Shown here piece after piece: positions 12,855 to 39,170 of a DNA stretch of 64,000 nucleotides. The translations under genes and the position numbers were made by a program. This stretch comes from Sphingomonadales bacterium (GTDB taxonomy: Bacteria; Pseudomonadota; Alphaproteobacteria; Sphingomonadales; Sphingomonadaceae): NCBI GenBank assembly GCA_027486895.1, contig JAIXOE010000037.1:62001-126000 (forward strand), given 5' to 3'. The first letter of the stretch is position 1. The number at the start of each line of letters is the position of its first letter. The notes under the pieces are model-generated. The model worked only from the letters and a program-made list of their open reading frames with translations, searched no databases and was not told the origin of the DNA.

Positions 12855-13616
12855 ATGGAGGATCGCGCAGAAACTGCAGCTTTAGCGGCTGTCGAATCGC
12901 TAACTGGTTGGTGGACGCTGGCCGGTGTGGATTCTGTCGTCGGTGAGGCAGCCGTTAATTGGCTGGCGGAAGATGAAGTAGTCAACCCTCCAAAACTGGC
13001 TGGAGCAGCCGCTAACAGTAATGCCAACGCCCCTGTCGCACCTCAAGTGCCATCGATTCCTTGGCCCAATGATATTGCGACATTGCGGCAAATGGTGATT
13101 GATGGTGCGGCACTTCCCGGCAATGGCTTCGGTCCTGTTCATATCCCCCCAATTGGCCCGGATGACAGTACGATTGTCATCATATCCGACTTGCCCGATC
13201 TGGCAGATGCCAATGAAGCGACTGCCGGAACGTCCGTAACGCACATATTGCTAGAACGTATGCTGGCAGCCATTGGGGTCAATATCGCAGATTGCTACCG
13301 GACATGGCTTGCAACGACGGTGCCGGCGACGGGCGAATTGCCCGATCAGTTTCTGCCTGAATTGGGGCAATATATGCTTCATCAATTGGGTCTAATTAGA
13401 CCCACATCGGTGGTTATACTCGGTTCATCGGCATGCAAGGCTCTGTTAGACGCAGATCTTATGAATGCGCGCGCAGAGTTACGGAATGTTAACCATGATG
13501 GCCGCAACATGGCCGCATTGACGACATTCCATCCGCGAACGCTCATCGCAAGGCCTGCCATGAAAGCACAGGCGTGGAGAGATTTGCAGATGTTTGCAAA
13601 AAGGGATGCCCTGTGA
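12855..13616 (+). CDS. Uracil-DNA glycosylase superfamily protein, degenerate active site
   Basis: This 253-residue protein shows the family 4/5 UDG outline. After a low-complexity N-terminal 60 residues come SIPWPNDIATLRQ, a beta strand ending in VIISDLPD, the helix ILLERMLAAIGV, RPTSVVILGSSACKALL, and the C-terminal TTFHPRTLIARPAMKAQAWRDL. The last matches the usual TYHP...WEDL end with its histidine. The expected GEAPG...GxPFVGxAG motif and the four iron-sulphur cysteines are not seen: only two cysteines occur, in other places. It may be catalytically altered or structural. GGAGGA-like purines overlap the ATG. Its stop overlaps the next start as GTGA. Confidence 0.72.
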   Translation: MEDRAETAALAAVESLTGWWTLAGVDSVVGEAAVNWLAEDEVVNPPKLAGAAANSNANAPVAPQVPSIPWPNDIATLRQMVIDGAALPGNGFGPVHIPPIGPDDSTIVIISDLPDLADANEATAGTSVTHILLERMLAAIGVNIADCYRTWLATTVPATGELPDQFLPELGQYMLHQLGLIRPTSVVILGSSACKALLDADLMNARAELRNVNHDGRNMAALTTFHPRTLIARPAMKAQAWRDLQMFAKRDAL

Positions 13617-15400
13617 GCGCCAAGAATGTGGATATCGCAAAAGTGCGCAACTGCCGAGCGAACGCCTTTAAATGGCTTGTGCCGATGCTAGCCTTATTCC
13701 CAGTGGGGGCTGCGCATGCAAATACGAGCGAGGGCTTTCGCGCGATAGTTTCGACACAGATTGCCCCAACCGTATTGGATGCAAAAGAAAAGGCAGCCTT
13801 TGCGGCAATCTACGACGCCATTCGAAACCAAAAATGGGACGATGCTGCACGGTTAATTGATGCCGCACCACAAGGGCCAATGGCTGCCATGGCGCGCGCC
13901 GAATTATATGTTGCCCCTGACAGCCCAAAGGTTGAGGTCGCGCAACTGCAGTCGCTATTGCAGTCGGCACCCTATCTGCCGCAGGCGGAACAGCTTGCGA
14001 CAATGGCGCGCAAGCGTGGCGGTGGTGTTCTTCCTGAACGTCCCGGTATCCGTCGTTTCTCATGGTTAGGTGGCGCACCAAAGCGAGATTTGCCGACAAA
14101 CGCGGCCAGCGATGCCATTCGCGGCGAGCTTCAGGTGTTTATCAAAAACGACCAGTCTTTAGCCGCGGAACAGTATCTGGAAACCAAGGGCGCTGAACTT
14201 TCACCCGAAGCATTGACTGAGCTCAGATACCGCGTCGCATGGTCATATTATATCGAAAATGACGACCAATCAGCCAAACGGGTTGCAATGCTCGCACGAT
14301 CGGCGGGCGGGGAGTGGGGCACGCAGGCAGCTTGGGTTGAGGGTTTAGCGTCATGGCGACTGCGCGAATATGCTGAGGCTTTCGAAACATTTGATTTCGT
14401 TTCACGCCTCGCAGCCAATGACGACCTAAAAGCGGCAGGTCTGTTTTGGGGCGCGCGCGCTGCTATGGCTGCGAAACAACCGCAATATGTGCAGCTGAAA
14501 ATGCAAAAAGCAGCGCAGTTGCCCGAAACCTTTTATGGTCTGCTTGCGAGCGAGACACTTGGCATGGAACCCATCGCCCGCAAAGCAGCGAAGGTTTCTA
14601 AGCTGGATTGGGCGAGTCTTAAAGATCAACAGAATGCCGTACTTGCGGTCGGCCTCGCTGAAATCGGTCAAACCAAACTTGCAGACGAAGCATTACGCCA
14701 TCAGGCGCGTATTGGTGATGCGCGGCAGCATGCCAATTTGGCGCAATTGGCCGGTTCGCTTAATCTTGCTTCCACCCAGTTTTGGCTGGGGCATTATGGT
14801 CCATCACGCGACCAGAGCAATGCCATAGCACGTTATCCGATGCCCAATTGGGAACCAAGCGGGGGCTGGCGGGTCACGCCAGCTCTTGTCTATGCGCACG
14901 CTTTGCAAGAATCCAATTTTCGCACCGATGTCATTAGCCCAGCGGGCGCTCGTGGTTTGATGCAAGTTCGGCCCGGCACCGCGCAGGATATGGCGCGGAC
15001 GCGTGGCGCTTCGTTCACTGCGTCGGAACTTGACCGTCCGTCAGTCAATCTAGAATATGGTCAGTCGTATCTTGAAAAGTTGCGCGATCTGCCAGCCACC
15101 GGCGGCCTGCTGCCAAAGGTGATTGCTGCGTATAATGCAGGACCCACTCCTGTCACGCGCTGGAACACCGAAATTCGGGACAATGGCGATCCCCTGCTCT
15201 TCATCGAGTCGATCCCTTATTGGGAAACGCGCGGCTATGTTGCCATTATCCTGCGCAATTACTGGATATACGAAATGCGGGAAAATAAGGCTTCGGGAAG
15301 CTTGAAAGGGTTAGCCCAATATATGTGGCCAAAGTTCCCCGATGCCAATGGAACCGTAACTGCGCGCCGCGCAACAGGAGGCGTCATTGCCGCTCGATAA
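13613..15400 (+). CDS. Soluble lytic murein transglycosylase (Slt-like)
   Basis: 595 residues. A signal peptide (FKWLVPMLALFPVGAAHA) precedes a long alpha-helical superhelical region. A C-terminal SLT domain carries the catalytic glutamate at about residue 433 in HALQESNF, followed by SPAGARGLMQVRPGTA and AAYNAGPTPVTRW. It cleaves the beta-1,4 bond of peptidoglycan with formation of 1,6-anhydromuramic acid, in the periplasm. I set the start at GTG 13613 because it overlaps the glycosylase stop (GTGA); the track ORF starts 13 codons earlier inside that gene. It overlaps moaB by 14 bases, so the three genes form an operon. Confidence 0.92.
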   Translation: MSAKNVDIAKVRNCRANAFKWLVPMLALFPVGAAHANTSEGFRAIVSTQIAPTVLDAKEKAAFAAIYDAIRNQKWDDAARLIDAAPQGPMAAMARAELYVAPDSPKVEVAQLQSLLQSAPYLPQAEQLATMARKRGGGVLPERPGIRRFSWLGGAPKRDLPTNAASDAIRGELQVFIKNDQSLAAEQYLETKGAELSPEALTELRYRVAWSYYIENDDQSAKRVAMLARSAGGEWGTQAAWVEGLASWRLREYAEAFETFDFVSRLAANDDLKAAGLFWGARAAMAAKQPQYVQLKMQKAAQLPETFYGLLASETLGMEPIARKAAKVSKLDWASLKDQQNAVLAVGLAEIGQTKLADEALRHQARIGDARQHANLAQLAGSLNLASTQFWLGHYGPSRDQSNAIARYPMPNWEPSGGWRVTPALVYAHALQESNFRTDVISPAGARGLMQVRPGTAQDMARTRGASFTASELDRPSVNLEYGQSYLEKLRDLPATGGLLPKVIAAYNAGPTPVTRWNTEIRDNGDPLLFIESIPYWETRGYVAIILRNYWIYEMRENKASGSLKGLAQYMWPKFPDANGTVTARRATGGVIAAR

Positions 15401-15914
15401 CGATATCGCGTTTAAGCCAGTCAATATTGCACTTCTAACAGTGTCAGATACGCGCGGTCCAGACAATGACACCAGCGGCAATTTATTGGCCGAACGTATT
15501 ATCGCGGCAGGACATAAGATCATCGAGCGCGCGATCTTGCGCGACGATACCGCGATGATCACCGCACGATTGCACAATTGGATCGATGATGATCACATCG
15601 ACGTTGTCATATCCACTGGCGGAACAGGCCTCACCGGACGCGATGTTACGCCTGAAGCACTGGACCGCGTCAAAACCAAAGATATCCCTGGGTTTGGCGA
15701 GCTGTTCCGCTGGTTGAGCTTCGCAAGCATTGGCACGTCCACCATTCAATCGCGGGCCTGCGCGGTGCTGGCACGTGGCACCTACATCTTTGCGCTGCCT
15801 GGCTCAAACGGCGCAGTAAAAGACGGGTGGGACCAGATTTTGGTCCATCAACTCGATAACCGGCACCGTCCATGCAATTTTGTCGAACTGATGCCTCGCC
15901 TGTCGGAGCGCTAA
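15387..15914 (+). CDS. moaB: Molybdenum cofactor biosynthesis protein B
   Basis: This is a 175-residue protein of the MoaB/MogA adenylyltransferase family. The molybdopterin-binding loop [16 protein letters not shown] lies in the middle, LTVSDTRG near the start, and [15 protein letters not shown] near the end. It probably adenylylates molybdopterin before metal insertion, the step that feeds MoeA. Start is TTG 15387 with a strong AGGAGG five bases upstream, inside the end of the transglycosylase gene. Other cofactor genes of this pathway (moaC, moeA) lie 21 kb away in the trp run. Confidence 0.93.
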
Positions 15915-15939
15915 GCGTCGAGACGCCAATCCTCCAAAT

Positions 15940-16443
15940 CTATTTCGCGGAAAGGGCCTTTTGCTCTTTCACAAAAACAGCGAATTCTCCGAGCATCGTT
16001 GACCACCATTCCGCAACATCGGTGAAGTTTTCTTTATTCAGACCGCCGGTGGTGGTGATGTCATAAGCAAGCTGAAGCTTTTTATCCTCCACTGAAGCTT
16101 GGATGAAGCGCTTTTTGGTATTCCATGCGTTGGCATATTCCGGAGTATTGTCATCCTCGGCATCGAAATTGGCGGCGAACTGCAACGAACTGCAATTTTT
16201 TCCTTCATCACAGCCATAAAAATATATCTCAAATTTATAGCCGCTGGCTTCGCTGGATATCATCGGGTCGCCGGTTTTGTCTTTGTCCAGCTTTGCCCGA
16301 AAGCCCGCATCCTGAATGCCCGAAACGATGGTTTCAGGCTTAGAAGCACAGATCAGCCCAGCGGGACAGTCATCCTGAGCCCGTGCGCTACCGCTAAATG
16401 ATAGCAATCCCGCGGACATCAGAATCAGAGCTTTTAGTTTCAC
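15940..16443 (-). CDS. Secreted YbjN-domain protein
   Basis: The protein has 167 residues from GTG 16443, which has AAGGAG upstream; the track ORF adds 17 unlikely residues. A clear signal peptide (LKALILMSAGLLSFSGSARAQDD) is followed by a pattern typical of YbjN/type III chaperone-like folds: PETIVSGIQDAGF, ISSEASGYKFEIYFYGC and a C-terminal helix ending in the mature tail. Two cysteine pairs (DDCPAGLIC, GCDEGKNC) suggest disulphides in the periplasm. Function is unknown. It is convergent with moaB (25-base gap, no T-rich terminator) and divergent from the radical SAM gene, sharing a 97-base promoter region that contains a LexA-type box. Confidence 0.75.
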   Translation of the reverse strand: MKLKALILMSAGLLSFSGSARAQDDCPAGLICASKPETIVSGIQDAGFRAKLDKDKTGDPMISSEASGYKFEIYFYGCDEGKNCSSLQFAANFDAEDDNTPEYANAWNTKKRFIQASVEDKKLQLAYDITTTGGLNKENFTDVAEWWSTMLGEFAVFVKEQKALSAK

Positions 16444-16501
16444 CGGTGATTCTCCTTTCGGACAATTTGGCAGCACGCACTGGCGGTGCAACATGTATTT
16501 T

Positions 16502-16516
16502 GTTCTTTATATGTTC
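16502..16516 (+). promoter_or_regulatory. LexA-type operator GTTC-N7-GTTC upstream of the radical SAM gene
   Basis: The sequence GTTC TTTATAT GTTC is an exact match to the direct-repeat LexA box known from alphaproteobacteria (GTTC-N7-GTTC) and to the boxes in front of lexA in this window. It lies 25 bases before the ATG at 16541 and overlaps a plausible promoter (TTGTTC at 16500-16505, 17 bases, TTATGG at 16523-16528). It could also affect the divergent YbjN-like gene. Confidence 0.68.
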
Positions 16517-16540
16517 TCGCAATTATGGCATTGTTCGCAG

Positions 16541-17629
16541 ATGGAAAATGCAACCAATCGTGATGTGACAAAGGGACGCGGGGCACCCGCCAATGCAGTG
16601 CCAACCCGATTTAATTTGAACAACCTTGTTGCAGACGGAGACTGGCTGGACGCGCGTGAGGCGCTCGATGGTGTGAAGCCTCCGCTTAAGACGACGGTGA
16701 CGGAAGAGTTTGCAAAATCGATACTTTCTTTCAATAATTCCCCCGACATCCCTTTTGACCGTTCGGTGAATGCCTATCGCGGTTGCGAGCATGGCTGCAT
16801 CTATTGTTTTGCACGGCCAACACATGCCTATCATGATCTGTCGCCGGGGTTGGATTTTGAAAGCCGCCTTTTTGCAAAACCAAACGCAGCCGATATATTG
16901 CGCAAAACGATTGCGAAGCCGGGATATCGTGCAGCGACTATCGCGATCGGAACGAACACTGATCCGTATCAGCCGATCGAACGGACGTATCGCATTACGC
17001 GATCGATATTGGCGCTGATGGTGGAAACATCGCACCCCATTGTCGTCACGACAAAATCAGCGCGCGTTATTGATGATATAGACCTGTTGAGCCAACTGGC
17101 ATCCAAGCAACTGACAGGCGTTGCGATATCTGTGACGTCGCTTGATGCGAAGCTTGCTCGGACGTTAGAACCCAGAGCATCATCGCCGATGACGAGGCTT
17201 GCGGCGGTGCGTAAACTTTCTGACGCAGGAATATATGTGCATGTGAACATCGCGCCGATTATTCCAGCCGTAACAGATCACGAAATTGAAGCCATCGCGG
17301 AAGCTGCCGCTGAATATGGCGCAACAAGCATCAGTTCGATACCCATTCGCCTTCCGCATGAAGTCGCGCCTTTGTTCCGCGATTGGCTTGATGTCCATTT
17401 TCCCGATCGCGCGTCGAAAGTCATGAACATCATTCGCGATATGCGCGGTGGTAAAGACAATGATGCCGAATTTTTCTCACGGATGAAGGGGCACGGTCCG
17501 TGGGCGGAGTTGATACGAACTCGAATGCAAATCGCGCGAAAGAAACACGGCTTGGACAGTTCCAAATGGAATGTTAGAAATGACCTGTTCGTACCGCCAA
17601 ATATGAATGGGCAACTGAGCCTATTTTAA
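16541..17629 (+). CDS. Radical SAM protein, PA0069/SplB-like family
   Basis: This 362-residue protein has the radical SAM cluster motif CEHGCIYC (cysteines near residues 82, 86 and 89) in YRGCEHGCIYCFARP. The preceding FDRSVNAYRG and the later TNTDPYQPIER and SPMTRLAAVRKLSDAGI are characteristic of the PA0069/Rv2578c-type family, related to spore photoproduct lyase-like enzymes. The reaction is unknown. I chose ATG 16541 (MENATNRD): the track ORF start at 16493 would place the start upstream of the LexA box and promoter. A LexA-type operator in its promoter suggests DNA-damage control. The stop overlaps the convergent DUF1330 stop by four bases. Confidence 0.88.
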   Translation: MENATNRDVTKGRGAPANAVPTRFNLNNLVADGDWLDAREALDGVKPPLKTTVTEEFAKSILSFNNSPDIPFDRSVNAYRGCEHGCIYCFARPTHAYHDLSPGLDFESRLFAKPNAADILRKTIAKPGYRAATIAIGTNTDPYQPIERTYRITRSILALMVETSHPIVVTTKSARVIDDIDLLSQLASKQLTGVAISVTSLDAKLARTLEPRASSPMTRLAAVRKLSDAGIYVHVNIAPIIPAVTDHEIEAIAEAAAEYGATSISSIPIRLPHEVAPLFRDWLDVHFPDRASKVMNIIRDMRGGKDNDAEFFSRMKGHGPWAELIRTRMQIARKKHGLDSSKWNVRNDLFVPPNMNGQLSLF

Positions 17630-38391: not shown

Positions 38392-38420
38392 GCATACATG
38401 ACTGCAAAATGCGTTTGTTC

Positions 38421-38449
38421 TTGACCTAACCGCATTTGTTCTCTAATCG
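38421..38449 (+). promoter_or_regulatory. lexA promoter
   Basis: TTGACC (38421-38426), a 17-base spacer and TAATCG (38444-38449). The -10 element lies within the LexA operators described next, as expected for an autoregulated gene. Transcription would start near 38456. Confidence 0.5.
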
Positions 38450-38463
38450 TTCTTCTCATGTTC
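38438..38463 (+). promoter_or_regulatory. Two overlapping LexA boxes (GTTC-N7-GTTC-N7-GTTC)
   Basis: GTTC at 38438, 38449 and 38460, each separated by exactly seven bases (TCTAATC and TTCTCAT). This gives two consecutive alphaproteobacterial LexA boxes that share the middle GTTC. They cover the -10 region and the expected start of transcription of lexA. A further GTTC at 38417 precedes the -35 element. Confidence 0.87.
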
Positions 38464-38483: not shown

Positions 38484-39170
38484 ATGCTCACAGCCAAACA
38501 GCATGAACTGCTTGTGTTCATTAACCAGCGACTTGATGAAAGCGGTATTTCGCCCTCATTCGAAGAAATGAAGGAAGCGCTGGATTTGAAAAGCAAATCA
38601 GGCGTGCATCGGTTGATTGGTGCTTTGGAAGAGCGGGGCTTTATCCGCCGCCTCGCCAACCGCGCCCGCGCGCTTGAGGTAATGAAGCTGCCTGAGGGCG
38701 GTAACATGCGCAGCGATAATGTTACGAAACTGGCGCCCGCTATTGCTGGCAACAAGGCGCAGGTTAATCTGCCCGTTGCCGCAAATGACGTCATGGAAAT
38801 ACCGCTACATGGCAAAATCGCCGCTGGTGTCCCAATTGAAGCGTTGGAAGGGCAAAGTTCCTTGTCTGTGCCAATGGCGCTTTTGGGCGCTGGCGAGCAT
38901 TATGCGCTTGAGGTGTCGGGTGACTCAATGATCGAGGCTGGGATATTGGATGGTGATTATGCACTCATCCGTAAAGCCACGACCGCGCGCGACGGCGAGA
39001 TTGTGGTAGCACTGGTGCGCGGCGAAGAAGCGACGCTTAAATATCTGCGCCGCGAGGGTCAGCAAATCCGGTTGGATCCCGCCAATAGCACCTATGAACC
39101 GCAATATTATGCACAGCATGAAGTTGAGGTACAGGGAAAGCTTGCGGGCCTATTACGCAGATATCATTGA
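38484..39170 (+). CDS. lexA: SOS repressor LexA
   Basis: The protein has 228 residues. The winged-helix DNA-binding domain (1-65) starts [13 protein letters not shown] with [24 protein letters not shown]. After a linker comes the Ala114-Gly115 self-cleavage site in [11 protein letters not shown]. The catalytic Ser148 is in [20 protein letters not shown], and the Lys is about 186 in EATLKYL. RecA-stimulated cleavage relieves repression of DNA-repair genes. ATG 38484 is chosen because the track start at 38436 lies within the operator. Its stop overlaps that of the convergent comEC gene. Confidence 0.97.

Follow-up and report, generated by a model that had tools for sequence, protein, structure and literature searches.

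The single gene at positions 16541–17629 (+ strand) of the 64,000-nucleotide sphingomonad stretch analysed here (the window) probably encodes a LexA-induced radical SAM enzyme that is tethered to the beta sliding clamp and processes DNA lesions. This reading is built on a predicted LexA (SOS) operator just upstream of the gene (16502–16516, + strand), conserved before its orthologues, and on a conserved C-terminal pentapeptide, QLSLF (residues 358–362; 17612–17626, + strand), predicted from the translation and its conservation to be a clamp-binding motif.

The predicted product is a 362-residue radical SAM protein (Pfam PF04055) and a full-length member of the PA0069 family, matching positions 1–348 of the 348-position NCBIfam profile NF033668 with 460 bits (curated cut-off 360); we found no difference from this family, whose function is annotated as hypothetical. 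The cluster motif CEHGCIYC (residues 82–89; 16784–16807, + strand) holds all three cysteines of the protein in a Cx3Cx2C arrangement that is invariant in 70/70 homologues, and no further conserved cysteine column was found across this set. A search by sequence found no solved relative. Both flanking genes, encoding a YbjN-domain protein and a DUF1330 protein, lie on the opposite strand, so the radical SAM gene stands alone. The wider region (12855–17629) carries genes for a UDG-superfamily protein, a lytic transglycosylase, MoaB and the radical SAM protein in an order common to many sphingomonads; moaB also lies upstream of the gene in 23 of 35 non-sphingomonad loci, and the two do not form an operon in the window. 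A role in anti-phage defence was rejected, as PADLOC gave no match. The gene is retained in 22/45 genomes of the genus versus 177/201 in the family, and many of the genomes without it are small. Because about half of the genus and class genomes lack it, the gene is dispensable. Three IMG/VR contigs (L197, L198 and L199) end within PA0069-family genes and possibly represent provirus borders or host sequence.

A pattern search of the window bore out the preliminary description of an exact LexA-type box: GTTCTTTATATGTTC at 16502–16516 on the + strand is an exact GTTC-N7-GTTC (GTTC-TTTATAT-GTTC), with the ATG of the radical SAM gene (16541) 24 bases downstream. An alternative in-frame ATG at 16493 was set aside, since the box would then fall inside the coding sequence, and ATG 16541 fits better. 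The overlap with a likely -35 region given in the preliminary description found no support, as no promoter resembling the sigma-70 consensus was recognised around the box. The same architecture occurs before lexA, also as previously described, where two overlapping boxes (38438–38452 and 38449–38463, + strand) precede the putative gene for the cognate repressor (38484–39170, + strand; start ATG 38484 set by eye). In this upstream region (38418–38463) the two exact boxes share one GTTC, and an additional GTTC-N7-AACC half-match lies just upstream. Elsewhere in the genome, a box (GTTCTTGATATGTTC, C35:71990–72004, L039) lies 15 bases before the start of a RadA-like gene, possibly a further SOS gene, and recA-, ruvA-, uvrD- and mmcB-like ORFs (identities by eye) also carry boxes. 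An exact box at C32:14082–14096 near dnaE2 (C32:8478–11870, reverse strand) probably precedes an imuA-imuB-dnaE2 operon.

The window contains seven GTTC-N7-GTTC sites versus 1.57 expected. Genome-wide, 91 sites were found versus 134 for the backwards control pattern, and the bare pattern is thus not enriched. The box by itself is weak evidence, and because the bare pattern is common in the genome, conservation across orthologues is the real and decisive test. Among orthologues of the same genus or family, an exact GTTC-N7-GTTC was present upstream in 47/49 (fewer than 0.4 expected), and the remaining two differed by one mismatch; other GTTC–GTTC spacings (2–6 and 8–14) occurred in only 0–1 of these 49 upstream regions. 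Loss of the box from close relatives, named beforehand as grounds for refutation, was therefore not observed. Similarly, exact boxes were found upstream of 62/70 orthologues from other alphaproteobacterial families (0.24 expected from shuffles), with a single match in equally long downstream stretches as the control. Outside the class, none of 26 orthologues from the same phylum was preceded by GTTC-N7-GTTC; CTGT-N8-ACAG, the form known for LexA of beta- and gammaproteobacteria, was instead present upstream of 18 (0.06 expected, none in controls). An exact box was thus missing in 8/70 orthologues of the same class and in 8/26 from other classes. Taxa with the GTTC box include Sphingomonas, Sphingopyxis, Novosphingobium, Rhizobium, Agrobacterium and Ensifer, as well as an annotated PA0069-family gene on pSymB of S. 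meliloti, and those with the CTGT box include Duganella and Caballeronia. Among 45 sphingomonad loci, a divergent YbjN gene was nearby in six and the box was present in 43; the box persists while the divergent neighbour varies, which assigns it to the radical SAM gene, and its assignment to YbjN was rejected. The non-enrichment of the bare pattern would be compatible with a chance match before a gene outside SOS regulation, but conservation at one sharp spacing in 47/49 relatives and the lineage-matched swap to the other LexA box leave this explanation with a negligible probability. The conservation of lineage-matched LexA boxes over three proteobacterial classes, each with its own form, strongly supports the SOS control proposed in the preliminary description and argues that the radical SAM gene is a real and ancient SOS gene.

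SOS regulation of this gene group is not new, because LexA control of splB/COG1533 was already inferred in 2012 for multi-chromosome alpha- and betaproteobacteria (PMC3323433), and similar genes occur in the LexA regulons of Bacteroidetes, Balneolaeota and Gram-positives (PMC8565304, PMC7739468). The sphingomonad gene adds one more case to an established rule. PA0069 itself is, we presume, a member of the LexA regulon of P. aeruginosa. At the COG level, the gene behind the LexA box is the same in the window and in the 2012 work; that work concerned multi-chromosome species and not sphingomonads, called the gene a photolyase and, in its available text, makes no mention of a clamp motif (PMC3323433).

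The relation to spore photoproduct lyase (SPL) given in the preliminary description appears to hold at the level of the fold only and does not extend to family membership. An AlphaFold2 model built from the 70 homologues (mean pLDDT 79) had SPL structures as its six best PDB matches, with E values of 6e-9 to 1e-7 and TM-scores of only 0.51–0.54, followed by NifB, SkfB and lipoyl synthase. Judged from the model, SPL is the nearest solved fold and the resemblance is distant; the two proteins share the Cx3Cx2C radical SAM core and have about 15% identity. The Pfam SPL model (PF20903) gave no match at E values up to 10, whereas a control SPL-like protein matched at 3e-81; TIGR04070 did not match the window protein, and TIGR03886 scored 19.7 bits versus a cut-off of 437.55. 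A profile comparison with hhalign revealed weak similarity between PA0069 and SPL over 109 columns, with the donor-cysteine region outside the alignment. The hydrogen donor of SPL is Cys140/141, and a hand alignment on the shared T-D-P anchor puts T138 in its position. As read from the translation, an SPL-type cysteine hydrogen donor cannot be used by the window protein, because its only three cysteines are all cluster cysteines. SPL family membership was therefore rejected on the unmatched family models and the missing donor. Direct reversal of UV thymine dimers by SPL-like chemistry, as proposed in 2012 for ‘splB’ in alpha- and betaproteobacteria, would be in keeping with SPL as the closest solved fold, the weak profile similarity, the SOS control and the published annotation as splB (PMC3323433). 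We nevertheless consider it unlikely given the silence of PF20903 even at E 10, the absence of the Cys140/141 donor and the non-sporulating nature of the bacteria concerned.

The C-terminus suggests a different connection to DNA. Clamp-binding motifs follow QL[S/D]LF or QxxLF, with PolC carrying QLSLF at its C-terminus (PMC12309361); transposases reach the clamp through a C-terminal QLxLF (PMC4549789). Such motifs are often C-terminal, and a hexamer form, QLSLPL, is also established (PMC12309361, PMC4549789). The window protein thus carries at its extreme C-terminus a pentapeptide identical to that of known clamp clients, enzymes otherwise unrelated to the radical SAM protein (PMC12309361, PMC4549789). 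Across the 70 homologues, Gln358 is present in all 70, residue 361 is Leu in 68 and Phe in two, and residue 362 is Phe, Leu, Ile or Met in 69. In the tails of 221 proteins, the pentamer was found in 210 and either the pentamer or the known hexamer form in 218, and the motif was exactly C-terminal in 199 versus 1.8 expected from shuffled tails. The pattern persisted among 92 representatives below 70% identity (pentamer in 84, pentamer or hexamer in 90, exactly C-terminal in 75), and one of the exceptions (L067) comes from a gene interrupted by a stop. The tail preceding the motif is rich in Pro and Gly and variable in length; the last 12 residues of the model have pLDDT values of 72 (residues 351–360) and 54, and the tail is not clearly disordered. 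As a signal in a single genome the motif is not significant, with three matches to a related C-terminal codon pattern versus three in the reversed control, and the predicted significance comes entirely from conservation, with the caveat that conservation of a short motif can have other causes. A literature search of partial coverage found neither the PA0069 family nor any other radical SAM enzyme linked to the sliding clamp. The clamp-type tail of this radical SAM family thus appears to be unreported and would be a new and directly testable element. As a predicted docking element, the conserved tail, which the preliminary description does not mention, provides for the first time a ground in the sequence itself for locating the enzyme on DNA, the earlier assignment to DNA repair having been a guess.

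Related features extend to the actinobacterial Rv2578c family (NF038135), of which the window protein is not a member (219.8 bits versus a cut-off of 430) although the core is homologous. Four Rv2578c-type relatives, sampled from plasmid-collection records, end in QLTLL, QLRLL, QESLF and QEPLF, a C-terminal Q-x-x-L-[FL] that lies beyond the end of the family model. The Streptomyces and Nonomuraea relatives carry an upstream GAAC-N4-GTTC, the Gram-positive-type LexA box. A 2026 study described a Streptomyces relative that is naturally disrupted by a phage at no obvious cost, and called any connection of this gene with DNA repair speculative (PMC12924846). The clamp-type tail was absent from the distant homologues checked in Priestia, Runella, Selenomonas (mobile pair B) and Haloarcula. 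On the Runella plasmid (L292), the distant radical SAM homologue is preceded by HipA genes and directly followed by a UvrD-like helicase.

These observations fit a mechanism in which LexA, bound to the box shortly before the start codon, would keep the gene repressed in undamaged cells, repression by LexA being established biology. After damage, RecA-stimulated LexA cleavage would allow the enzyme to be made. The protein, presumably a [4Fe-4S] radical SAM enzyme as a member of the PA0069 family, would then dock through QLSLF, on its short Pro/Gly-rich tail, in the peptide pocket of DnaN, the beta sliding clamp, and docking would deliver it to replication forks, gaps or repair patches. There, 5'-deoxyadenosyl-radical chemistry could act on a DNA lesion without recourse to the SPL hydrogen-donor cysteine. 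We infer LexA repression and radical SAM chemistry from what is known of the respective families; clamp docking is predicted from an established motif, action on DNA is likewise putative, and the nature of the substrate is a guess. In the model comparison, the nearest solved fold, SPL, is itself a DNA-repair enzyme, which would support such a role.

Two other accounts share the clamp docking and assign the enzyme a different task. The tail might dock on the clamp while the substrate is a protein or nucleotide, giving the enzyme a regulatory role instead of one in lesion repair. Many radical SAM relatives do act on peptides or small molecules, among them NifB, SkfB and lipoyl synthase, which follow SPL in the structural matches, but SOS control and clamp docking would both point to DNA, and the neighbourhood comparison found no peptide or biosynthetic partner gene in a conserved operon; we regard this account as quite improbable. 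Alternatively, the enzyme could be an accessory of the ImuA-ImuB-DnaE2 translesion mutasome, working beside it on the clamp. Both are under SOS control, ImuB is a predicted clamp client (PMC11791113), and co-occurrence with dnaE2 is strong overall (53/69 genomes with the radical SAM gene versus 11/73). However, the association is largely gone after matching for genome size (p = 1, 0.25 and 0.04 in three size bins), and dnaE2 is missing in 16/69 genomes that carry the gene. An obligate partnership with the mutasome was rejected on these grounds, and even a looser accessory role seems very unlikely.

A LexA-induced, clamp-tethered enzyme acting on DNA lesions remains the reading that we favour, and it may reach beyond sphingomonads. 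The gene recurs in SOS regulons of Bacteroidetes, Gram-positives and Proteobacteria (PMC8565304, PMC7739468, PMC3323433). Tentatively, and with slightly less than even confidence, we suggest that the PA0069/Rv2578c group forms a widespread, SOS-induced class within the radical SAM enzymes, whose members operate on the beta sliding clamp and reverse or process a replication-blocking DNA lesion by a non-SPL radical mechanism. If this is true, the conserved docking tail would locate the enzyme at the replication fork and make an open annotation concretely testable, and radical SAM chemistry would enter the sliding-clamp interactome.
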